Of a stretch of DNA of 64,000 bases, positions 52,781 to 64,000 are shown one piece after another (within the stretch, counting starts at the first letter, position 1; the number at the start of each line of letters is the position of its first letter). The notes under the pieces were generated by a model, which saw nothing but the letters and a program-made list of their open reading frames with translations, was not told where the DNA came from and searched no databases. The DNA is from Alteromonas sp. IB21 (GTDB lineage Bacteria; Pseudomonadota; Gammaproteobacteria; Enterobacterales; Alteromonadaceae): contig NZ_JAEFCD010000001.1 of the NCBI RefSeq assembly GCF_016405965.1, positions 258,530-322,529 of the forward strand, given 5' to 3'. A program made the translations under genes and the position numbers.

Positions 52781-53575
52781 CTAACTTAGTAAAGACAAAA
52801 CTTGTCCTTCTTGCTGATTAGCCTGCGCTTGAACGGTAAGAGCAGCTTGCCCTAAAACATCGTTAGATGCGCGCTCTGATGCCGCTTGAGCAAAATCTAA
52901 GTCTTGGATTCGGCTTCTTGCCTCGGCAGTGTTGATGCTCGACTGAGTAAGAGAACGCGCCGCACTCTCGAAACGGTTTTGGGTAGCACCTAAATCGCCA
53001 CGCGCGCCGCCCAATGTTTCGATCGCTACATCAGTTGCACCTAGTGCATCCTCAATACTTGTTCCTGCCGTTATGTCGATCGCGAGTACATCACTTAACT
53101 CTGCAGCAATATCTCGCGTATTCACGCTTATTGATTGTCCAGCACTTGACCCTGATTGAAAGTCAAGTGAACCGTTTTCAGATAATAACGGTTTGCCAGC
53201 GAAGTTGGTCTGCTCAATGGTTTGCGAAATGTTTTCTTGCAGCTGCGTTATTTCAGATTGAATAGCACGACGATCGCCGCTGCTTAAAACCCCACTCCCC
53301 GACTGTAAGGTAAGCTCACGAATACGGTTAACGTCGTCATTTATGCTTCCAAGGCCGCCTTCTGCGACTTGCGCTACTGAAATTCCGTCGTAAACGTTAT
53401 TAATAGCCTGGCGGTTACCTTCTACTTCTGAAGTTAACCGGTCGATGATTTGCTGGGCTGAAGCATCATCTAGCGCGTTATTAACTTTCTTGCCGCTGGC
53501 AAGCTTCTCCATCAAAGACTCTTGTCGCTCTTGCACTTGACTGAGAATAGAAGACGTTGAGCTATTAACTTGCAT
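52781..53575 (-). CDS. Short divergent flagellin
   Basis: A 264-residue flagellin-like protein. The N-terminal D0/D1 helices include ASGKKVNNALDDASAQQIIDRL and YDGISVAQVAEGGLGSINDDVNRIRELTL. The C-terminal D1/D0 part has GARGDLGATQNRFESAARSL, EARSRIQDLDFAQAASE and ends QANQQEGQVLSLLS. The first residues (MQVNSSTSSILSQVQERQ) differ from the common MAxxVNTN start. There is almost no variable central D2/D3 domain. No sigma-28 element precedes it. It could be a minor or cap-proximal flagellin. TTAGGAAAG serves as ribosome site. A pseudaminic acid locus diverges from it. Confidence 0.85.
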   Translation of the reverse strand: MQVNSSTSSILSQVQERQESLMEKLASGKKVNNALDDASAQQIIDRLTSEVEGNRQAINNVYDGISVAQVAEGGLGSINDDVNRIRELTLQSGSGVLSSGDRRAIQSEITQLQENISQTIEQTNFAGKPLLSENGSLDFQSGSSAGQSISVNTRDIAAELSDVLAIDITAGTSIEDALGATDVAIETLGGARGDLGATQNRFESAARSLTQSSINTAEARSRIQDLDFAQAASERASNDVLGQAALTVQAQANQQEGQVLSLLS

Positions 53576-53749: not shown

Positions 53750-54205
53750 ATGACAACTGTGGTGACCTACGGCACCTTCGACTTATTCCATATAGGGCAT
53801 GTACGACTTTTAAAGCGATTACATAGCCTGGGTGATAGGCTTTTAGTTGGATTATCCTCTGACGAATTCAATACAGTGAAAGGTAAAAACGTTGTCATAC
53901 CATATGAAGACAGAAAGGAAATTTTGCTTTCCTGCCGTTATGTCGATGACGTATTTGAGGAGAGTTGTTGGGAACAGAAACGCGAAGATTTAAAAAGAGA
54001 AAACGCTGATATCTTTGCAATGGGTGATGACTGGATTGGAAAGTTCGATGATCTGCAAGATATAGTTAAAGTTGTGTATCTACCACGCACACAAGATGTT
54101 TCTACTACTGAACTTAAAACCGTTATCAGTGAAATTCAAAATGAAAAAATTCGCGAAGTGCAGAGTTTAACTGAGCATTTAAATGCGTTGATACAGCGGC
54201 TTTGA
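53750..54205 (+). CDS. TagD-like cytidylyltransferase (glycerol-3-phosphate cytidylyltransferase type)
   Basis: This 151-residue enzyme transfers CMP from CTP to a phosphorylated alcohol; the type enzyme makes CDP-glycerol. The start is ATG 53750, since TVVTYGTFDLFHIGHVRLL is the family N-terminus with the HxGH motif (HIGH). The second motif, RTxGISTT, appears as RTQDVSTT, and YEDRKEILLSCRYVDDV and MGDDWIGKFD are conserved. The substrate may be glycerol-3-phosphate or a related compound. It opens the plus-strand glycan locus, 46 bases before pseF. A LicD transferase that could use its CDP product is encoded four genes downstream. Confidence 0.9.
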   Translation: MTTVVTYGTFDLFHIGHVRLLKRLHSLGDRLLVGLSSDEFNTVKGKNVVIPYEDRKEILLSCRYVDDVFEESCWEQKREDLKRENADIFAMGDDWIGKFDDLQDIVKVVYLPRTQDVSTTELKTVISEIQNEKIREVQSLTEHLNALIQRL

Positions 54206-54251
54206 GTTCGTTATCAGATTCGAGCTAGCCTTTTTTGAACGGAACAAGTAA

Positions 54252-54956
54252 ATGAACGTAGCTATAATCCCCGCAAGGGGCGGAAGCAAACGCATTCCTA
54301 AAAAAAATATAAAACCGTTTTGCGGTAAACCTATGGTTGCCCATGCAATAGAAAACGTGTTGGCAAGCCCTTATGTAGACAAGGTAGTGGTTTCAACAGA
54401 TGATGAATCTATTGCAAACGTAGCAAGAGATTATGGTGCAGAGGTGCCATTCATGAGACCTGCAGAATTGGCAGATGATTACACAGGCACTAGTCCCGTG
54501 GTTCGCCATGCACTTAGCACCCTGTTAGAAAAAGGCTGGGAAATCGATTATTGCGCCTGTGTTTATGCAACATCACCTCTTCTAACCACGTCGTTAATTA
54601 ATTCTTGCTATGAAATGCTAATGAACGCTGACAATACAGACTACGTCTTTACAGCGGCAAGATTCTCATTTCCAATTCAACGGGCGATATTACAAACCGA
54701 AAATGGAGGCGTAAAACCTTTTGACGAGTTTGGCATTACTCAGCGCTCACAGGATTTACCACCAGCCTTCCATGATGCAGGACAGTTGTATTGGGGCCAT
54801 CACAAAACCTGGCTTGATACTAGCAAACGTATTTTCGGTGGCAACTCTAAAATGGTAGTAATGCCAGACCACTTAGTGCAAGACATTGATACACCTGAAG
54901 ATTGGGTTAGAGCTGAACTGCTTTACAAGCTTTTACAGAGCGAAAGCGTAAAGTGA
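54252..54956 (+). CDS. pseF: Pseudaminic acid cytidylyltransferase
   Basis: A 234-residue enzyme that activates pseudaminic acid with CTP to CMP-Pse, the donor for glycosyltransfer. The N-terminal motif IIPARGGSKRIPKKNIKPF is the CMP-sialate synthetase signature, followed by VVVSTDDESIANVA and YATSPLL. The C-terminal region QDIDTPEDWVRAELL is typical. It is followed by pseG with a four-base GTGA overlap. Confidence 0.95.
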   Translation: MNVAIIPARGGSKRIPKKNIKPFCGKPMVAHAIENVLASPYVDKVVVSTDDESIANVARDYGAEVPFMRPAELADDYTGTSPVVRHALSTLLEKGWEIDYCACVYATSPLLTTSLINSCYEMLMNADNTDYVFTAARFSFPIQRAILQTENGGVKPFDEFGITQRSQDLPPAFHDAGQLYWGHHKTWLDTSKRIFGGNSKMVVMPDHLVQDIDTPEDWVRAELLYKLLQSESVK

Positions 54957-56035
54957 GGATTGTTTTTAGGGTCGATGGCACGGCACAAATAGGGCTGGGC
55001 CACGTTATGCGCTGCTTAACCTTGGCCACACAATTACTTCCCATACATAACGTAACATTTCTGTCTTGCGCGCTGCCTTCAACTCTACAACAACAGATAC
55101 AGCGCGCTGGAATTACAACATTGGCCACGCCATCTCTTCATAAAGGCGAACGGGACGGTAATGCTTCGGCGGTGTTAAATGAAGCAGAACAAGCCTCTCA
55201 TGCAGCTCACTGTATAGCGCTTCTTGATGATATGAACGATGACACTATCGACTTACTGATAGTTGATCACTATCAGTTATCAGCTTCGTTTAATAAAGTA
55301 ATGCGTAGTCGCTGCAAACATATCGTTGTCATTGACGATTTAGCAAACCGTCAACACGACTGTGACGTGATTTTAGACCAAAACCTCTTTGAGGACTTTG
55401 AATTCCGATACGATCAGCTTGTCCCTCCTCATTGCCAAAAACTCTTAGGACCTGAGTTCGCTATTTTGAGAAATGAGTTTTACCGCTCACCACCAATGCC
55501 TAGAAATGACAATCATATTCTGGTCTGCTTTGGCGGCAGCGACCCTGGGAATTTAACAGAGCGCGTTGTTGATGTTTTGATTGAATTAAAGTCTTTAACT
55601 TTTTCAGCCGATATTGTTGTCGGAGCGGCTTATTCCGGCGTTAGTACGCTTAAAGCAAAAGTTGAACGCCTACCTAACGCGAAGCTTCACGTCGCTTGCG
55701 GTCACATATCCGAGCTTATGAAAGCCGCCAATACAGTGATTGGCGCTGGAGGTTCGATGCACTGGGAGCGCGCGGCATCGGGGGTAGCGGGCATAATTAT
55801 CACATTGGCTGATAATCAAGTTGAAACGACGCGGTGCTTGCACGAACGGCATTGCTGTTTGTGGCTAGGAGCATGTGACGAGGTCACAAACGAAGATATT
55901 AGCAAGGCCGTTGAATTTGCGATAAATTCGCCGCAAGAAATGCGTAAACTAGCAAACAACGCGGTATCTTTGGTGAGCGCAAACAAAAATCCATCTTTTG
56001 TAATGGATACTATATTGAACATTGTTACGAGGTAG
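54953..56035 (+). CDS. pseG: UDP-2,4-diacetamido-2,4,6-trideoxy-altropyranose hydrolase
   Basis: A 360-residue GT-B-fold hydrolase that removes UDP in the fourth step to pseudaminic acid. The GLGHVMRCLTLA motif carries the catalytic His, and VCFGGSDPGNLTERVVDVL and GAGGSMHWERAASGVAGIII are family blocks. The start is GTG 54953 inside the pseF stop. It is too short to include a PseH-type acetyltransferase fusion. pseI starts two bases after it. Confidence 0.92.
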   Translation: MRIVFRVDGTAQIGLGHVMRCLTLATQLLPIHNVTFLSCALPSTLQQQIQRAGITTLATPSLHKGERDGNASAVLNEAEQASHAAHCIALLDDMNDDTIDLLIVDHYQLSASFNKVMRSRCKHIVVIDDLANRQHDCDVILDQNLFEDFEFRYDQLVPPHCQKLLGPEFAILRNEFYRSPPMPRNDNHILVCFGGSDPGNLTERVVDVLIELKSLTFSADIVVGAAYSGVSTLKAKVERLPNAKLHVACGHISELMKAANTVIGAGGSMHWERAASGVAGIIITLADNQVETTRCLHERHCCLWLGACDEVTNEDISKAVEFAINSPQEMRKLANNAVSLVSANKNPSFVMDTILNIVTR

Positions 56036-56037
56036 TC

Positions 56038-57087
56038 ATGAAACCAATCACAATCGGTGATATTCAAATTGGTCCGGGTCTCGCTCCCTTTATCATCGCA
56101 GAAATGTCTGGAAATCATGGACAATCACTAGAAAAAGCCTACCTACTTATTGATGCAGCTGCAGAAGCTGGGGCACACGCCATAAAATTGCAAACCTACA
56201 CGCCAGACACGATTACTTTGGATTGTCACGAAGGCGAGTTTTTTATTGAAGACCCGAATAGTCTATGGAAAGGAAACTCTTTGTATAACCTTTACAAAGA
56301 GGCGATGACGCCTTGGGAATGGCACGAAGAGCTATTCGACTATGCCAGAGAGAAAGGCCTATTGGCATTTAGCACGCCCTTCGATTTAACCGCTGTCGAC
56401 TTCCTAGAAACATTGAATCCACCTTGTTACAAAGTAGCGTCTTTTGAAAATACTGACCACGCTATCCTAGCGGCTGTAGCAAAAACAGGGAAACCCGTTA
56501 TCGTCTCTACAGGCATGGCTAGCCAAGCAGAAATCGCAGAGTCTGTTGAAGTACTCCGTTCCAATGGGTGTGATGACATCATATTGCTTAAGTGCACCAG
56601 TAATTACCCAGCAAACCCTGTAGACGCCAACTTAAAGACAATTCCTCATTTGAGCGAACTTTTCGACTGTCACGTTGGACTTTCCGATCATACTCCGGGG
56701 GTGGGAGTAGCGGTCGCTGCGGTGGCTCTTGGCGCTACGGTAATTGAAAAGCATTTTGTTTTAGACAGAAGCGGCGGAGAGGTTGACGCGGAATTCTCTC
56801 TTGAACCTCATGAAATAAAGCTGCTTGTTGAGGAAACGGCGCGAGCAGCGGTAGCAATTGGCAAGGTGAGTTATGGCGCCACCGAGCGAGAAAAGGCCTC
56901 GTTGGTGCACCGACGCTCTTTATACATTGCCAAGGATATGAAAGCAGGCGACACATTAAATGCGGAGAATTTACGCTCTGTTCGCCCAGGGCTTGGACTG
57001 CCTCCAAAATACCTTCCCCTTTTGCTTGGAAAGCAAATAAAGAGCGACGCGCCAAAAGGTACCCCCATGAGTTGGGAGCTACTTTGA
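56038..57087 (+). CDS. pseI: Pseudaminic acid synthase
   Basis: A 349-residue NeuB-family enzyme condensing the 6-deoxy-diacetamido-altrose with phosphoenolpyruvate. The barrel domain has [42 protein letters not shown] and [20 protein letters not shown] with [13 protein letters not shown]-terminal SAF (antifreeze-like) domain covers about 290-349. It lies between pseG and the LicD gene with gaps of one to two bases. Confidence 0.96.
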
Positions 57088-57088
57088 G

Positions 57089-57997
57089 ATGAGAGCCATT
57101 CTGTTCGGTGCTAGTAAGGCCGGAGAAAACTACGTTTCCAATCACCCAGATATAGAAGTCGTGGCATTTACGGATAACGATAGTGCGAAGCACGGAACTC
57201 GTTTTATGGGTTATCCCATCATTGCACCAACAGATATTAATACTCACAATGTCGACAACATAATTATCACTAGTCAGTGGGTTGATCAAATCTATTCCCA
57301 GCTTACCGAGGAAATGGGTATTGATAAGTCGAACATCATTGTGCCGAGTAAGCAGTCGGTAAAAGCTGCCCTGCCCTTTGAAGACAGTGAAACGCTAGCT
57401 TTTGCCCAGTCCATAATGCGTACGCTAAATCAGCACTTCGTTTCCCACAACATTTCAGCGTGTCTAGATTCTGGGACTTTGTTGGGTGCCGTAAGAAATA
57501 AAGGGCTTATTCCTTGGGATGACGATATAGACTTAGCTGTCGATAAAGAGAATTACGAAAGGTTGCAGGCATCGCTACCTGAGCTTTATAAATTATTAAA
57601 CACAAACTATGACGTAAAATGGAATATCGTCATTATCACGGTCAACAACATAGACTGTTGCATCAACCTAGAGTTTAGTAATTTATCACACACCCAATTA
57701 GTTCCTTTTGATATAAGTATACAGCGCAGAGAGTCGATAAATGGTTTATCTGAACTCTTGTCCTCGGGCGGGCTGTTTTTTGCTCCTGCTAAACATTTTG
57801 ATAGCTATGAACCAATCGCGTTTTTAGGTGAAACTTTTCTTGCTCCATTCGATGCAGAAGGCTTTCTCACATTTATGTATGGACATTGGCAAACGCCCAA
57901 AAAGACGACGCAAATTACGGAATACGAAAATAGAAGAGCATCCATGTCAGGACCTAGAACAAGTATAAGCGTGCAAAAACGCACGTTTTCTCAATGA
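57089..57997 (+). CDS. LicD-family transferase with N-terminal Rossmann-like domain
   Basis: A 302-residue protein. Residues 1-95 form a small Rossmann-like domain ([13 protein letters not shown], then VVAFTDND, a GYPII loop and IIITSQW). The LicD domain follows: [12 protein letters not shown] (125-136) and WDDDIDLAV (143-151) hold the metal-binding acidic residues. LicD proteins transfer phosphocholine or similar groups from CDP-activated donors to glycans. The TagD-like gene in the same locus could make such a donor. The acceptor is unknown. It starts one base after pseI. Confidence 0.85.
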
Positions 57998-58024
57998 GCG
58001 TTTGAGCAATGGTGTCAAATTAAC

Positions 58025-58975
58025 GTGAACGTATTACTTTCAAGCGCTAGCAATAAAGTTCCACTATTAAAAGCGCTTCAATGCGCAGTTAAGCGTATCG
58101 ATAATAAAGGCATAGTCACGGCGGGAGATTTAAGTAGCCAAGTACTCACACGACACTTTTGCGATGTATTTTGGCAAATGCCACCCACAACACAAGAAAA
58201 CGCAGATGAGATTATTGCCCAGCTCAAGCATCGAAGAATTACTCATATTCTCCCAAGTAGAGACGGCGAACTGCTTTTTTGGGCAAGGCTAAAAAAGGAC
58301 TTAAAAAGCGCTAACATTCAAGTACTTGTTTCTGATGAAACTGCAATTGAGCTTTGTTTAGATAAATTAAGATTCGGCCAATGCAGTATTCCTTTTATCA
58401 TCCCTTCATTTGAAAGCATCGAAGAGGTGAAAACGGTTATTCAGGACGCACAGCCATCGCATTACGTGGTCAAAGAACGTTTTGGTGCGGGTAGTAAAGC
58501 GGTTGGTCTTAATCTAAACGAAAACGACGCCGTGCAGCACGCCAAAGGTCTATCCTCCCCTATTTTTCAATTATACAAAGCAGGTCAAGAAATTAGCGTA
58601 GACGCTTGGCTAACAAAAGATCATTTGGTTAAAGCGGCCGTGTGCCGTGTGCGAGACTTAGTTGTTAATGGTGAATCCCAAATTACTTATACTTTACCGA
58701 ATTGCCCTTTTACAGCACAGGTGACACAGACACTTTCCAACCTAGCCCTCTCTGGCCCCGTTGTATTACAGGGCATCATAATTGATAGAGCGCTTCACAT
58801 CATTGAATGTAATTCACGATTTGGAGGCGCTTCAACTTTAGGTATCAAGGCAGGTGTTGATAGTCTTTATTGGAGCTTGTGCGAGAGTATAGGTGAAGAT
58901 ATCGACTCGTTGCCCGTGGACCTCGCATCCCATAAAATTACGCAGATCAGAGCTGCTACCGACTATTACCTATGA
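58025..58975 (+). CDS. ATP-grasp domain protein of unknown substrate
   Basis: A 316-residue ligase-like protein. The N-terminal pre-grasp part begins MNVLLSSASNKVPLLKAL. The ATP-grasp core has HYVVKERFGAGSKAVGLNL (nucleotide-binding Lys), ISVDAWLTKDHLVKA and the metal-binding HIIECNSRFGGAS near the C-terminus. Relatives join a carboxylate to an amine or thiol, as in carbamoyl phosphate synthase. The start is GTG 58025 with a weak ribosome site. The stop overlaps the HAD gene by four bases (ATGA), so the two are coupled. Confidence 0.8.
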   Translation: MNVLLSSASNKVPLLKALQCAVKRIDNKGIVTAGDLSSQVLTRHFCDVFWQMPPTTQENADEIIAQLKHRRITHILPSRDGELLFWARLKKDLKSANIQVLVSDETAIELCLDKLRFGQCSIPFIIPSFESIEEVKTVIQDAQPSHYVVKERFGAGSKAVGLNLNENDAVQHAKGLSSPIFQLYKAGQEISVDAWLTKDHLVKAAVCRVRDLVVNGESQITYTLPNCPFTAQVTQTLSNLALSGPVVLQGIIIDRALHIIECNSRFGGASTLGIKAGVDSLYWSLCESIGEDIDSLPVDLASHKITQIRAATDYYL

Positions 58976-59628
58976 TTTATATCTTCGACCTAGATGATAC
59001 CCTTTATGATGAGCGCCAATATGTAGAGTCTGGTCTTGCAGCCGTTGCCTCATTTGTGGAAAAAAACTGGAATGTTGATAAGCGACGTGGCTTTCAAGAA
59101 TTAGTTACTCTACTTGATCGAAATGGTCGTGGTCGAATTTTCAATGATTATCTAGCTCACCATGGTATAGCAGTCAATAAGAGAAATGTACGTGCCTGTG
59201 TTTCAGCATATCGCTTACACCAGCCCACTTTGACTTTGCCCGACAATCACCTAACGTTGCTAGAAAGTTTGCCCAAGCCACTTTACCTCGTAACCGACGG
59301 AAATAAAGTGGTACAAAGTAAGAAAGTGGAAGCACTCAACATAGCGCACTACTTTAAGCGCGTATTTGTCACTCACCGCTTTGGAGTGAAACATGCTAAA
59401 CCTTCTACTTACTGTTTTGAAAAAATCAGACAAGCAGAACAGTGTCAGTGGCACGAAATGGTTTACATTGGTGACAATCCAGCGAAAGACTTCGTTAATT
59501 TAAATAAACTTGGAATGCCGACTGTTCGGGTGCTAACTGGTGTTCACAAAAAAGCACCTGCCAAACCAGGATTCGATGCACAGTTCACCATACAAAACCT
59601 AGATGAACTCCCTGCCCTCGGGCTTTGA
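58972..59628 (+). CDS. HAD-family phosphatase
   Basis: A 218-residue haloacid dehalogenase-type hydrolase. Motif I is FDLDDTLYD, with D6 as likely nucleophile and D8 as acid/base. Motif II is LVTDGNK, motif III a Lys in KPSTYCFEKI and motif IV YIGDNPAKDF. It has a small helical cap after motif I. It probably removes phosphate from a sugar or small alcohol phosphate made in this locus. It is translationally coupled to the ATP-grasp gene and is the last gene before a 209-base gap. Confidence 0.85.
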   Translation: MIYIFDLDDTLYDERQYVESGLAAVASFVEKNWNVDKRRGFQELVTLLDRNGRGRIFNDYLAHHGIAVNKRNVRACVSAYRLHQPTLTLPDNHLTLLESLPKPLYLVTDGNKVVQSKKVEALNIAHYFKRVFVTHRFGVKHAKPSTYCFEKIRQAEQCQWHEMVYIGDNPAKDFVNLNKLGMPTVRVLTGVHKKAPAKPGFDAQFTIQNLDELPALGL

Positions 59629-59741: not shown

Positions 59742-60835
<1,094 letters not shown>

Positions 60836-60836
<1 letters not shown>

Positions 60837-61996
60837 TGATTCCTTATGGGCGACAGCATCTTGATGAAGAAGATGTAAAAGCCGTTGTCGAAACCTTGAC
60901 ATCAAGCTGGTTAACACAAGGGCCTGCAGTTCCTAAATTTGAAGCCGCTCTTGCTGATTACTGTGGCGCCGAATTTGGCGTTGCCGTGAATAGCGCAACT
61001 TCGGCTCTTCATATTGCCTGTTTAGCGTTAGGTGTTGGCAAGGATGACCTTGTTTGGACGTCACCTAATTCATTCGTAGCATCTTCTAATTGCGCATTGT
61101 ATTGCGGTGCTTCGGTTGATTTTGTCGATATTGACCTGCAAACAGGCAATATGTGTATGAAAGCGTTAAAGCAGAAGCTTGAGCATGCCCAAAACATCAA
61201 TACACTGCCTAAGGTGGTTATTCCGGTTCACTTTGCTGGACAACCATGCGATATGGAGAGCCTCCACGTATTGGCAAAGCAGTTTGGCTTTTATGTTATC
61301 GAAGATGCATCACACGCCATTGGTGCTAAATATAAAGGCGCATTCATAGGCAGCGGGCAGTATGCTGATATTTGCGTTTTTAGCTTTCACCCAGTGAAGA
61401 TAATTACCACTATGGAAGGCGGTATGGCCCTCACAAATAATAGTGAATGGGCAGAGAAAATGCGCATGCTGCGCAGCCATGGCATAACAAACAATCCAGA
61501 AATGATGACAGAAGAAAGTCATGGACCTTGGTACTACCAACAAATTTCGTTAGGCTTTAATTATCGTATGACGGATGTAGAGGCCGCGTTAGGACTAAGC
61601 CAGCTGGATAAACTTGAAGTATTTCTGGATAAAAGAAACGCACTAGCAGCACACTACGATAGATTATTTAGCGAATGTGAAACCATAACACCGTTGAAGC
61701 AAAACGCTGATGGCTATTCCAGCTATCACCTTTATGTGGTTCGCATAGATTCGTTTACTGATAAACAGCATGCCGACCTTGTGACAAATTTACGTGAACA
61801 AGGTATTTTTGCGCACGTGCATTATATTCCTATTCATATGCAGCCCTATTACAAGAACTTAGGCTTTAAACTTGGCGACTTTCCAAATGCGGAGACTTAC
61901 TATCAGCAAGCGGTGACATTACCGCTTTTTCCGGAGTTAACATTTGAACAGGCTGAATTTGTTGTGAACATACTTGCTGAAGAGATAAAGCGCTAA
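60836..61996 (+). CDS. pseC: UDP-4-amino-4,6-dideoxy-N-acetyl-altrosamine aminotransferase
   Basis: A 386-residue PLP enzyme of the DegT/AryC1 type that follows PseB. The start is GTG 60836 overlapping the pseB TAG. PLP Lys is K188 (FSFHPVKIITTMEGG). Other blocks: AVNSATSALHIACLALGVG, VIEDASHAIGAKYKG, GFNYRMTDVEAALG. It is the last plus-strand gene and is convergent with a methyltransferase gene. No pseH acetyltransferase gene follows it in the window. Confidence 0.95.
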
Positions 61997-62064: not shown

Positions 62065-63009
62065 CTAGCATTTCCTTATTACCGAAATACAATCTAACGC
62101 TTTTATCCCCCAATCCATAATCTGCTGCTCTTCAACAATAAAGCCACTTTTTCTACAAATATGACGCATGTCTTCTGCGTTGAACTCGCTACGACAATGA
62201 GGATTTTTTCTCCAATTTTTGTCTGCTTTGAAATCTTCATGTTCTCTAGCGTTTGAATGGTGTAGCACAGCGTAACCACCGATAGACAGGATGCGGGAAA
62301 ACTCACTTAATATATAATCAACGCTCTTGTAATCGAAATGCACCATCGCATCCCAGCTGTAAATAAAACTCACGCTGCCACTGTCTGCCGGGATTTTTTC
62401 AGGCTTACTTATGCGGCATTCCACATTTTCTTTCTCGTCAAACCTTGAGGCACAATGGCTGATTGCTTCTTGACTTGTGTCTACACAAATAAGTGACTCA
62501 CAGTTACCGCTTAACAAGTCAGCAATTCGGCCTTTACCGCAAGCAAAATCCATTACTTGGGATAAATTGAAATGATATTTTTGCATCAAGGGCTCAAGAT
62601 AGGTCTGAAACTGTACCTCATTATGCTCTTCTGCATCTTTATAATACTCGTTCCAATCAAAAGTATGGGGCTCATATTGCCCCTCTTCCATTACATGGTT
62701 AGCATTAAGTTTAACAACTCTGTTTGCGTTGACGCCCAGTTTTTTTAAGTGAAGCTCTATCTCATCGGCAAATTTTAAAGACGCTACAATAATTGGGTAC
62801 GCTGGCAGACGAATCAGTTCGTGTTCTGGAACGAATGAAATTGCTCCCACTTGCTTTGCTGACGTTATTTTTTTGTCAGTAACGTAAATGGTGCTAACGA
62901 ACCTCGTAACTTCTAATTGCTTTAAAAACGACTGACCAATATCACCAGCACCGTAAATTATCACGCCCTCGCTTTTTGGAACATTACCGAATGGAAAAAG
63001 ATAAAACAT
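62065..63009 (-). CDS. SAM-dependent methyltransferase with N-terminal Rossmann-like domain
   Basis: This 314-residue protein has residues 14-95 forming a small Rossmann-like domain (VIIYGAGDIGQSFLKQL, then a D-type acidic turn and PIIVASLKFADEI). A class I methyltransferase domain follows (about 145-305) with motif I VMDFACGKGRIADLL, CVDTSQEAI and FIYSWDAMVHFDY. The substrate is probably a glycan or sugar precursor given the neighbours, but this is inferred. It lies eight bases after the GT8 gene on the same strand. Confidence 0.8.
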   Translation of the reverse strand: MFYLFPFGNVPKSEGVIIYGAGDIGQSFLKQLEVTRFVSTIYVTDKKITSAKQVGAISFVPEHELIRLPAYPIIVASLKFADEIELHLKKLGVNANRVVKLNANHVMEEGQYEPHTFDWNEYYKDAEEHNEVQFQTYLEPLMQKYHFNLSQVMDFACGKGRIADLLSGNCESLICVDTSQEAISHCASRFDEKENVECRISKPEKIPADSGSVSFIYSWDAMVHFDYKSVDYILSEFSRILSIGGYAVLHHSNAREHEDFKADKNWRKNPHCRSEFNAEDMRHICRKSGFIVEEQQIMDWGIKALDCISVIRKC

Positions 63010-63017
63010 ATAAATCC

Positions 63018-64000
63018 CTATATAACAGTTAACGCTTTATGGCGTAGTGAGTTCGTAATGTCTTGCTTGTGAGGAAGCGTAGCAACCACTATCGCTTCGA
63101 CCTGATCAGTCATCAACTTTTCTGGAGAAACAATGGAAAAGGAAAAGCACTTTCCGGTTAAGTGAGTATCAACAACTTGTTTGATAATAATGTGAGGGAG
63201 CTTTTGTTCTAGCGCTTTAATAATTCTTCTTCCTCGCGCTCCAGCTCCCCAAATGGCAATTTGAGCACTGGTAGTAAACGTTTCTTTCAGTTTTTCGAGA
63301 ATGGCATTGTCTTCACTATCAAGAAACAATGACAGAGTCTTGTTCTCAAAAGGTACATTTTCAAAAAATCTTCTATATTGCTCTGTGTAGGGGTGTGCTG
63401 AAGAAAGATGCCACGGTTTTTCTTGACCAGTAAAATGCACCACAATGGGCGATGTAACGTCTGAATGCATCAATGTATAAGTCTGCGTGTTAAACTTTGC
63501 GTCTAAATACTGTGCCTGTTCATCAAGCACCTTATTTAAGACATCTTGGTCATTGTATTCCCATTGCTTTCTTGAACTATGTACACGGCTCAGATGTTGA
63601 AACGTATCGTTTTCTCGCCACCTAGCTAGATCAATAAGCATTACGCCAGCATTGAAATAAGTTTTTGAGGAAAGCGCTATCTTTTCAGGCCTGTTTTGAG
63701 ACATTAAAGAATGATCCTCAACAACACCAACCGTTTTGCCGTCAAGCGACTCATCCCAAAGAGATTTTATGTCACCTGTAACGAGAATATCAGCATCGAG
63801 ATATATGACCCTGTCCAGCTTTGGCAATATTTCAGCAAGTGCATAACGAATGAAAGTAATACCATTTAAGCGCCCTTGGTAACGTTCACTAAGTTTACCC
63901 TGCGTTATGCTTGCCTCGTAAGCAATAAAATTAATCGTCACCTTCTCAGTTTCTAGCATTCTTAGACGTTGTTTGACCTGTGAGGATAAATTGCCAACAA
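63018..64000 (-). CDS. GT8-family glycosyltransferase with C-terminal Rossmann-like domain (5' end outside the window)
   Basis: The reading frame stays open to the window edge, so the Met at 63959 is internal and the true start is outside. Visible GT8 features: FIRYALAEILPKLDRVIYLDADILVTGDI with the DxD metal motif, FNAGVMLIDLARWRE, and HFTGQEKPWH. Residues from about 235 of the visible part form an extra Rossmann-like domain (IAIWGAGARGRRIIKAL). GT8 enzymes commonly add glucose or galactose to lipopolysaccharide or other glycans. It probably shares an operon with the methyltransferase downstream. Confidence 0.82.
   Translation of the reverse strand, partial: VGNLSSQVKQRLRMLETEKVTINFIAYEASITQGKLSERYQGRLNGITFIRYALAEILPKLDRVIYLDADILVTGDIKSLWDESLDGKTVGVVEDHSLMSQNRPEKIALSSKTYFNAGVMLIDLARWRENDTFQHLSRVHSSRKQWEYNDQDVLNKVLDEQAQYLDAKFNTQTYTLMHSDVTSPIVVHFTGQEKPWHLSSAHPYTEQYRRFFENVPFENKTLSLFLDSEDNAILEKLKETFTTSAQIAIWGAGARGRRIIKALEQKLPHIIIKQVVDTHLTGKCFSFSIVSPEKLMTDQVEAIVVATLPHKQDITNSLRHKALTVI

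Follow-up and report, generated by a model that had tools for sequence, protein, structure and literature searches.

A pseudaminic acid locus that appears to lack PseH carries a coupled, putatively exchangeable enzyme module in Alteromonas sp. IB21

Introduction

In the pathway described for Campylobacter and Helicobacter, CMP-Pse5Ac7Ac is produced by PseB, PseC, PseH, PseG, PseI and PseF, of which PseH is the GNAT enzyme that uses acetyl-CoA to acetylate the UDP-sugar at its C4 amine (PMC4363471; this paper and those named below are cited from excerpts). Here we analyse a pseudaminic acid (pse) locus located in a stretch of 64,000 nt, hereafter the window, of the genome of Alteromonas sp. IB21 (contig NZ_JAEFCD010000001.1, positions 258,530 to 322,529, forward strand). 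PseB, PseC, PseG, PseI and PseF are common to the two systems. In contrast, the Alteromonas genome has no PseH above the curated cut-off, and the locus contains extra genes: a tagD-like gene before pseF and, after pseI, genes for a LicD-family protein, an ATP-grasp enzyme and a HAD hydrolase, which we call the trio.

Several described systems share some of these components. The sfmABCDE genes of Shewanella oneidensis, which serve a flagellar Pse-type sugar, include the ATP-grasp protein SfmE, and the published excerpts report, as here, no clear PseH orthologue; unlike here, they also report no clear PseG, PseI and PseF orthologues, and the set includes a methyltransferase and other enzymes (PMC3765264). 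SfmE, 412 aa long, is compared with the window's ATP-grasp enzyme through its published description. The flagellin locus of Clostridioides difficile type B also has an ATP-grasp gene (CDR20291_0245, Pfam 13535), and mutation of this gene removes the terminal sulfonated peptidylamido sugar; the gene is compared by description only, and neither pse genes nor a LicD or HAD partner are mentioned in the excerpts (PMC5207246). In C. difficile type A and in Pseudomonas aeruginosa b-type strains, a phosphodiester-linked group is found on the flagellin sugar, with a presumed CDP donor and a HAD-like gene (PMC4441256, PMC11833859). There, N-methyl- or N,N-dimethylthreonine is attached to GlcNAc or to a deoxyhexose, and the accounts of these systems (CD0241-CD0242 and PA1088-PA1090), which are set against our locus by published description only, include neither pse genes nor an ATP-grasp enzyme.

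Glyceroyl amides occur on pseudaminic acid itself, as Pse5Am7Gra in Tannerella forsythia and as a di-O-methylglyceroyl group at N5 in Campylobacter jejuni (PMC6388019, PMC3068675). The latter depends on Cj1295, an aminopeptidase-like protein (PMC3068675), and the excerpts on T. forsythia identify no gene behind its N-glyceroyl Pse (PMC6120980). In the open-licence literature, the excerpts pairing ATP-grasp with the term nonulosonic came from PMC3765264 only, and those pairing it with pseudaminic from PMC3765264, PMC5207246 and PMC6321876; the trio is not described in them. Finally, the LicD protein of the window shares with the LicD/FKRP CDP-alcohol phosphotransferases the Pfam LicD domain, a DDDID motif and a predicted FKRP-like fold, and differs from them by an additional N-terminal Rossmann-like domain.

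Results

Beside a flagellin-like gene, the locus reads on the + strand tagD, pseF, pseG, pseI, licD, ATP-grasp, HAD, pseB, pseC. All five of the shared pse genes exceeded their NCBIfam equivalog cut-offs. For PseH, a profile search of the whole genome returned three partial matches of 23.6 to 35.2 bits, none of which reached the cut-off of 93.1 bits; GNAT proteins of other families are present. Applied to the genus, and counting here and below the matches listed, the same search detected, in 36 other genomes, a PseH-like gene next to PseI. The 36 matches that could be located, of 47 to 132 bits, each lie inside the PseI locus of their own genome, and the cut-off was exceeded in 9 of 59 genomes. 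Among the 11 genomes carrying the trio, top matches were partial, at 31–37 bits, except in G015, where a partial match of 57 bits lies on a different contig. Synthesis of plain Pse5Ac7Ac through an overlooked PseH was therefore rejected as the main explanation, no match exceeding the cut-off anywhere in the genome.

The distribution of the trio was examined by mapping 20 kb around PseI in 58 of the 59 genus genomes, G008, which has no PseI match, being left out. The ATP-grasp gene was present in 11 of the 59 genomes, and in all 11 the order after PseI was LicD, ATP-grasp, HAD; none of the other PseI loci among the 58 mapped contained a partial trio. Locus counts are based on 56 PseI loci, after removal of G016 and G031 (PseI scores of 150 and 152 bits). 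Eleven of these had the trio without a PseH-like gene, 39 had the reverse, six had neither, and none combined the two, an exclusion with a Fisher probability of 8.3e-8 (related genomes treated as independent, unadjusted).

The two labels were then placed on a gyrB tree of 57 genomes, without G007 (interrupted gyrB frame) and G057 (gyrB fragment). The trio label changed seven times, as did the PseH label, with at least six changes forced by supported branches. In seven independent pairs of genomes, the two traits never moved in the same way and moved in opposite ways in four to five. The rest of the block, pseF-G-I, also differs between trio and PseH-type loci, so that the exchanged unit is a cassette and not a single gene.

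Two further observations were made on these loci. In PseH-type loci (L088, L093, L095, L069), genes for acyl carrier protein-like, short-chain dehydrogenase, AMP-ligase and LuxE-like proteins often follow the PseH-like gene, pointing to a different acyl-group cassette at this position. In the trio locus L087 (G044), PseG and PseI are each broken into two open frames, and this locus may therefore be decaying or contain sequence errors.

The ATP-grasp enzyme belongs to its superfamily by its conserved metal and ATP residues (K150, E189, D193, E261, N263). Its predicted fold matched 2pn1, biotin carboxylases, GAR synthetase, PylC and RizA, and it is predicted to be a carboxylate-amine ligase acting on a sugar amine. 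Against PRK12767.1-4, a carbamoyl phosphate synthase-like equivalog, it scored 125.7 bits for a cut-off of 390. The HAD protein belongs to the HAD-IA family, and its DLDDT, T108, K143 and GDN are invariant across the 11 genus copies; we take the conserved Asp, Thr, Lys and Asp to be the catalytic residues. Its scores remained below the equivalog and subfamily cut-offs (91.4 versus 169.75 bits for TIGR02253, 50.3 versus 159.9 for YjjG_YfnB). As a separate observation, the ATP-grasp gene at L062:11416-12474 (G019) contains an in-frame array of short peptide repeats (HQSLDT), in a loop ahead of the ATP-binding part.

Relatives of the ATP-grasp enzyme were collected with two ATP-grasp peptide patterns, more distant relatives falling outside such a sample, and the best 80 of 122 confirmed ones (79 named loci) came from many phyla. 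The closest named ones in this set were those of Alteromonas abrolhosensis (95% identical) and A. gracilis (93%). Distribution across the order is patchy: at E<=1e-40, 4 of 295 genomes were found to encode the enzyme, and three of these belong to the genus. In the 79 loci, a HAD gene lay within three genes of the ATP-grasp gene in 76 cases, and a PseI-type synthase was present in 76.

Neighbouring genes of these loci were labelled (GNAT, PseG, PseH, methyltransferase) by profiles built out of the loci themselves. PseG without GNAT, the arrangement of the window, was found in 30 loci, GNAT without PseG in 43 (for example L112, L114, L153 and L158), both in one and neither in five. None of the 30 loci of the window's kind had a PseH-family match. 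In GNAT-type loci the ATP-grasp protein is often about 630–670 residues long, with an epimerase domain confirmed in L114, and in L127 it is fused to the GNAT; part of the evidence on GNAT adjacency and fusion comes from the 7996 best candidates scored and from the best 120 of 1284 proteins. Compared with the curated PseH model, the GNAT of GNAT-type loci scored 21.6–25 bits in four of five cases tested and did not match in the fifth. Genome-wide, PseG exceeded its cut-off in none of the 20 genomes tested from among the 43 GNAT-type loci and in all five PseG-type genomes. With a GNAT in 44 of the 79 loci and no PseG in 48, a substitution of PseG by HAD was considered, and set aside because HAD occurs also where PseG is present.

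The LicD protein is composed of an N-terminal Rossmann-like domain (about residues 1–93) and a LicD/FKRP-like transferase domain (about 88–278). It exceeds the Pfam LicD cut-off and has the Asp-rich motif, DDDID, which is conserved and which we take to be catalytic. Its predicted fold matched FKRP, for which structure entries include CDP-ribitol complexes, in a search where absence of a family from the listing does not exclude it. From its association with TagD, the protein is predicted to move a phospho-alcohol from a CDP donor. For the tagD product, the full-length match to the Bacillus subtilis TagD structure 1coz (E=3.8e-42) covers residues 2–126, and the score against TIGR01518, 149 bits, did not reach the curated cut-off of 165.4.

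The tagD gene lies in the pse locus, beside the flagellin gene, in 6 of the 11 trio loci, and two loci of the genus, those of G009 and G023, have tagD together with PseH and no trio. A single inseparable unit of four genes was therefore rejected, tagD being locally separable. At the scale of whole genomes, a TagD-like match above 130 bits was found in 11 of 11 trio genomes versus 24 of 48 others in the genus; this threshold was set after the scores had been seen, and at 120 bits the others number 26 of 48. In G021 and G049, tagD is probably present as a single copy. Outside the genus, TagD exceeded the curated cut-off in five of five genomes with LicD versus none of 17 genomes without it, in which the best score was 69.8 bits; the 17 were chosen by the analyst from 67 LicD-less loci, Cytobacillus L167 and L176 being excluded. 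Both of these Cytobacillus loci, which have no such LicD, carry tagD between HAD and ATP-grasp, and the upstream genes encode a CDP-glycerol glycerophosphotransferase domain (PF04464) in L176 and a CDP-alcohol phosphotransferase (PF01066) in L167.

Two recurrent methyltransferase families were found near the ATP-grasp gene in 2 of 16 loci with a phospho-alcohol gene versus 48 of 63 without one. Methyltransferases and phospho-alcohol genes thus tend to be mutually exclusive, and we therefore read them as two ways to cap a hydroxyl brought by the ATP-grasp and HAD enzymes. The four genes behave as two pairs, ATP-grasp and HAD with the pse genes, LicD with TagD.

An initial annotation of the window had recognised TagD-like, LicD, ATP-grasp and HAD genes among pse genes, with an ATGA coupling of the last two. 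The four families were confirmed by profile and structure matches (Table 1), the ATGA in which the ATP-grasp stop overlaps the HAD start can be read in the sequence at 58972–58975, and the setting among pse genes was borne out, the trio following pseI in all 11 ATP-grasp genomes. That annotation had also named independent occurrence of the four families, from each other and from pse genes, as the outcome that would speak against a common role. For ATP-grasp and HAD, no such independence of pse genes was seen, given the PseI-type synthase in 76 of 79 loci, and local independence was found for tagD.

Table 1. Features of the pse locus, with positions in the window and the matches on which their names rest
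Feature	Position	Strand	Match or basis
flagellin-like gene, edge of the island	52781..53575	-	named from its own sequence; position beside the pse genes kept in relatives
tagD-like glycerol-3-phosphate cytidylyltransferase, predicted product CDP-glycerol	53750..54205	+	TIGR01518, 1coz
pseF, CMP-pseudaminic acid synthetase	54252..54956	+	TIGR03584 297.4 bits, cut-off 205.7
pseG, UDP-sugar hydrolase	54953..56035	+	TIGR03590 257.8 bits, cut-off 153.55
pseI, pseudaminic acid synthase	56038..57087	+	TIGR03586 485.4 bits, cut-off 340.25
LicD-family protein	57089..57997	+	Pfam LicD 68.8 bits, cut-off 22.6; stretch 119-175 only
ATP-grasp enzyme, predicted carboxylate-amine ligase	58025..58975	+	ATPgrasp_Ter 34.9 bits, cut-off 29.1
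HAD-IA family hydrolase, predicted phosphatase	58972..59628	+	HAD_2 51.6 bits, cut-off 23.8
pseB, UDP-GlcNAc 4,6-dehydratase (inverting)	59838..60836	+	TIGR03589 549.8 bits, cut-off 407.75
pseC, aminotransferase making the 4-amino sugar	60836..61996	+	TIGR03588 552.9 bits, cut-off 423.5

From pseF to HAD, neighbouring genes either overlap by 4 bases or are separated by at most 27 bases, and because of this spacing the stretch looks like one operon. Past the end of the window, the contig encodes a Maf-type protein and further flagellin-like proteins, so that the locus looks like part of a flagellin glycosylation island.

Other genes of the island were recorded. Downstream of pseC, the window contains a methyltransferase gene with an N-terminal extension (62065–63009) and a family-8 glycosyltransferase gene (63018–63959); by eye, both proteins seem to share the Rossmann-like domain type of the LicD protein. 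About 1.6 kb beyond the window end, four consecutive genes (L184:4176-8423, G000:C11:324175-328422) encode proteins resembling adenylyl-sulfate kinase, PEP synthase (NF004508, 909 bits, over cut-off) and gamma-glutamyl-CDP-amidate hydrolase (98.9 bits, cut-off 250), and a nucleotidyltransferase. We take this row to resemble the Campylobacter phosphoramidate (MeOPN) gene set, here in a flagellar island; its gene families (c30–c33) recur in G000, G012 and G030. In the same island, at L184:12003-13843, a glucose-1-phosphate cytidylyltransferase (466 bits) and a CDP-glucose 4,6-dehydratase (455 bits), both over cut-off, point to a CDP-deoxysugar.

A distant relative of LicD, 31–36% identical, was found in four other genomes of the genus, G018, G028, G039 and G054. 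A fused cytidylyltransferase-PEP-mutase gene was identified by Pfam at L061:507-1808 and L071:1689-2990, with similar open reading frames in L097 and L082; it has a TPP-enzyme-like neighbour and the distant LicD relative close by. These neighbourhoods likely specify a phosphonate decoration.

Discussion

The initial annotation had suggested that the four genes add an unrecognised decoration to pseudaminic acid or to the glycan that carries it. An amide-linked group, a phosphoglycerol-like group or both remain plausible. A decoration alone is the less favoured reading: because no pseH is recognised here, and no locus of the genus combines the trio with a PseH-like gene, the trio looks like the replacement of a core step. 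The missing pseH is the point that our analysis adds to that earlier reading, which appears partly right and is now sharpened to a pse locus without PseH carrying a coupled, probably exchangeable module.

In the scheme that we favour, tentatively and at slightly under an even chance, the flagellin-linked locus lacks PseH and the trio replaces it, through an amide made by ATP-grasp, a dephosphorylation by HAD and a glycerol phosphate cap added by LicD. PseB and PseC would make UDP-4-amino-4,6-dideoxy-L-AltNAc. The ATP-grasp enzyme would activate an acid as an acyl phosphate and form an amide on the 4-amine made by PseC (the future N-7), at the step, ahead of PseG and PseI, that PseH normally carries out with acetyl-CoA. 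Since no PseH is recognised and an ATP-grasp gene follows pseI, a different amide at this amine is the economical reading. The acid may be phosphorylated, because a phosphatase is tightly coupled to the ligase, and phosphoglycerate is a first guess because N-glyceroyl Pse exists. HAD would then remove the phosphate from the acyl group, leaving N-glyceroyl, and LicD would move glycerol phosphate from the predicted CDP-glycerol of TagD onto a hydroxyl of the acyl group or of the sugar. PseG, PseI and PseF would complete the CMP-sugar, and the Maf-type transferase encoded further along the island would load it onto flagellin. This destination fits the distribution of the Maf profile in the genus, where 58 of 59 genomes contain it, exactly those with a PseI match. 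We infer all of these reactions, and likewise the identity of the acid, the phosphate that HAD takes off, the acceptor used by LicD, the site of linkage and the destination.

A wider form of this scheme is conceivable, although we find it rather doubtful. It would place in many phyla a branch of Pse synthesis independent of acetyl-CoA, with an N-acyl group made by ATP-grasp and HAD out of a phosphorylated acid, a TagD/LicD glycerol phosphate cap in Alteromonas and its relatives, repeated exchange with PseH at one island position, and a phosphoglycerylated flagellum.

Several results weigh against the replacement of PseH by the trio. Among the 39 PseH-like genes, just nine reached the curated cut-off, and those of G004, G020 and G035 were recognised by an analyst-built profile only (28.7–36 bits with TIGR03585). 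Six loci are of neither type: G022, G029 and G038 share a gene of one cluster, of which the G038 copy is PglD-like, G013 and G041 have a candidate WbqC-like gene (a label read by the analyst), and G024 has neither of these two. On the gyrB tree, both labels were more clustered than shuffled labels, and the sign test on independent pairs was not significant (median p 0.125), because the pairs are so few. Since exchange also involves a larger block that includes pseF-G-I, the exclusion may reflect a different sugar. The window's ATP-grasp and tagD proteins both fall below their equivalog cut-offs. In T. forsythia, the sugar bears an N-glyceroyl group at position 7 and a pseH is annotated, along with unassigned genes (PMC6120980). 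Finally, the ATP-grasp enzyme is not simply equivalent to PseH everywhere, because in 43 of 79 loci ATP-grasp and HAD accompany a GNAT and PseG is missing.

Other explanations were weighed against the same data. The ATP-grasp enzyme might add an amino acid of the alanine or glutamate type in place of a hydroxy acid, giving an aminoacyl nonulosonic acid, with LicD acting elsewhere. PylC and RizA, amide-forming ligases of amino acids, are among its fold matches, Leg5GluNMe7Ac (PMC13317340) and Leg5Ac7AcAla (PMC7371886) exist, and a GNAT adjoining or fused to ATP-grasp would fit an N-acetylated aminoacyl group. However, the HAD phosphatase would be left without a role, loci of the window's kind have no GNAT, and the two methyltransferases that alternate with phospho-alcohol genes suit hydroxyl groups better; we consider this explanation unlikely.

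We attach a similarly low probability to a C7 amine that is free, or acetylated by an unrelated enzyme, with the trio decorating another position of the sugar. Flagellin of S. oneidensis carries a mono-N-acetyl Pse of 274 Da plus a unit of 236–264 Da, and the mutant in its ATP-grasp gene sfmE stays motile, its flagellin showing a smaller mass shift (PMC3765264). The Alteromonas genome encodes GNATs of other families, and GNAT-type loci retain both activities. In contrast, none of the 11 trio loci has a PseH-like gene, exchange recurs on the tree, and the best PseH matches of trio genomes are the partial ones described above, including that of G015.

It is improbable, in our view, that LicD transfers a different CMP- or CDP-activated group (phosphonate, ribitol phosphate, phospho-amino acid or phosphoramidate), TagD serving another surface polymer. 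Phospho-threonine groups do occur on the flagellins of C. difficile type A and P. aeruginosa b-type strains (PMC4441256, PMC11833859), the distant LicD relative lies near the fused cytidylyltransferase-PEP-mutase gene in four genomes (two by Pfam, two by similar open reading frames), and a predicted phosphoramidate gene set follows the window. The association of LicD with TagD (5/5 versus 0/17) argues against this explanation, and the phosphoramidate set is near just 3 of the 11 trio loci (G000, G012, G030). That the four genes decorate lipopolysaccharide or capsule and lie in a flagellar island by chance is very improbable: LicD proteins are best known from surface polysaccharides, and some relatives among the matches listed are named lipopolysaccharide cholinephosphotransferase, whereas the genes are packed as in an operon with pseF-G-I, exclude PseH-like genes, and belong to an island that is flanked by flagellin genes and contains a Maf-type gene.

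Among bacterial sialic-acid-like sugars, glyceroyl, alanyl and glutamyl forms have been described, and the excerpts of the literature that we examined name no ligase for them. A widespread ATP-grasp/HAD pair, with conserved catalytic residues and excluding PseH-like genes in one genus, is a concrete candidate for such a ligase. If the replacement of PseH by the trio is correct, it could no longer be safely assumed that a pse locus yields Pse5Ac7Ac, and some flagella would bear phosphodiesters, which would alter their charge and their recognition by phages, hosts and antibodies.

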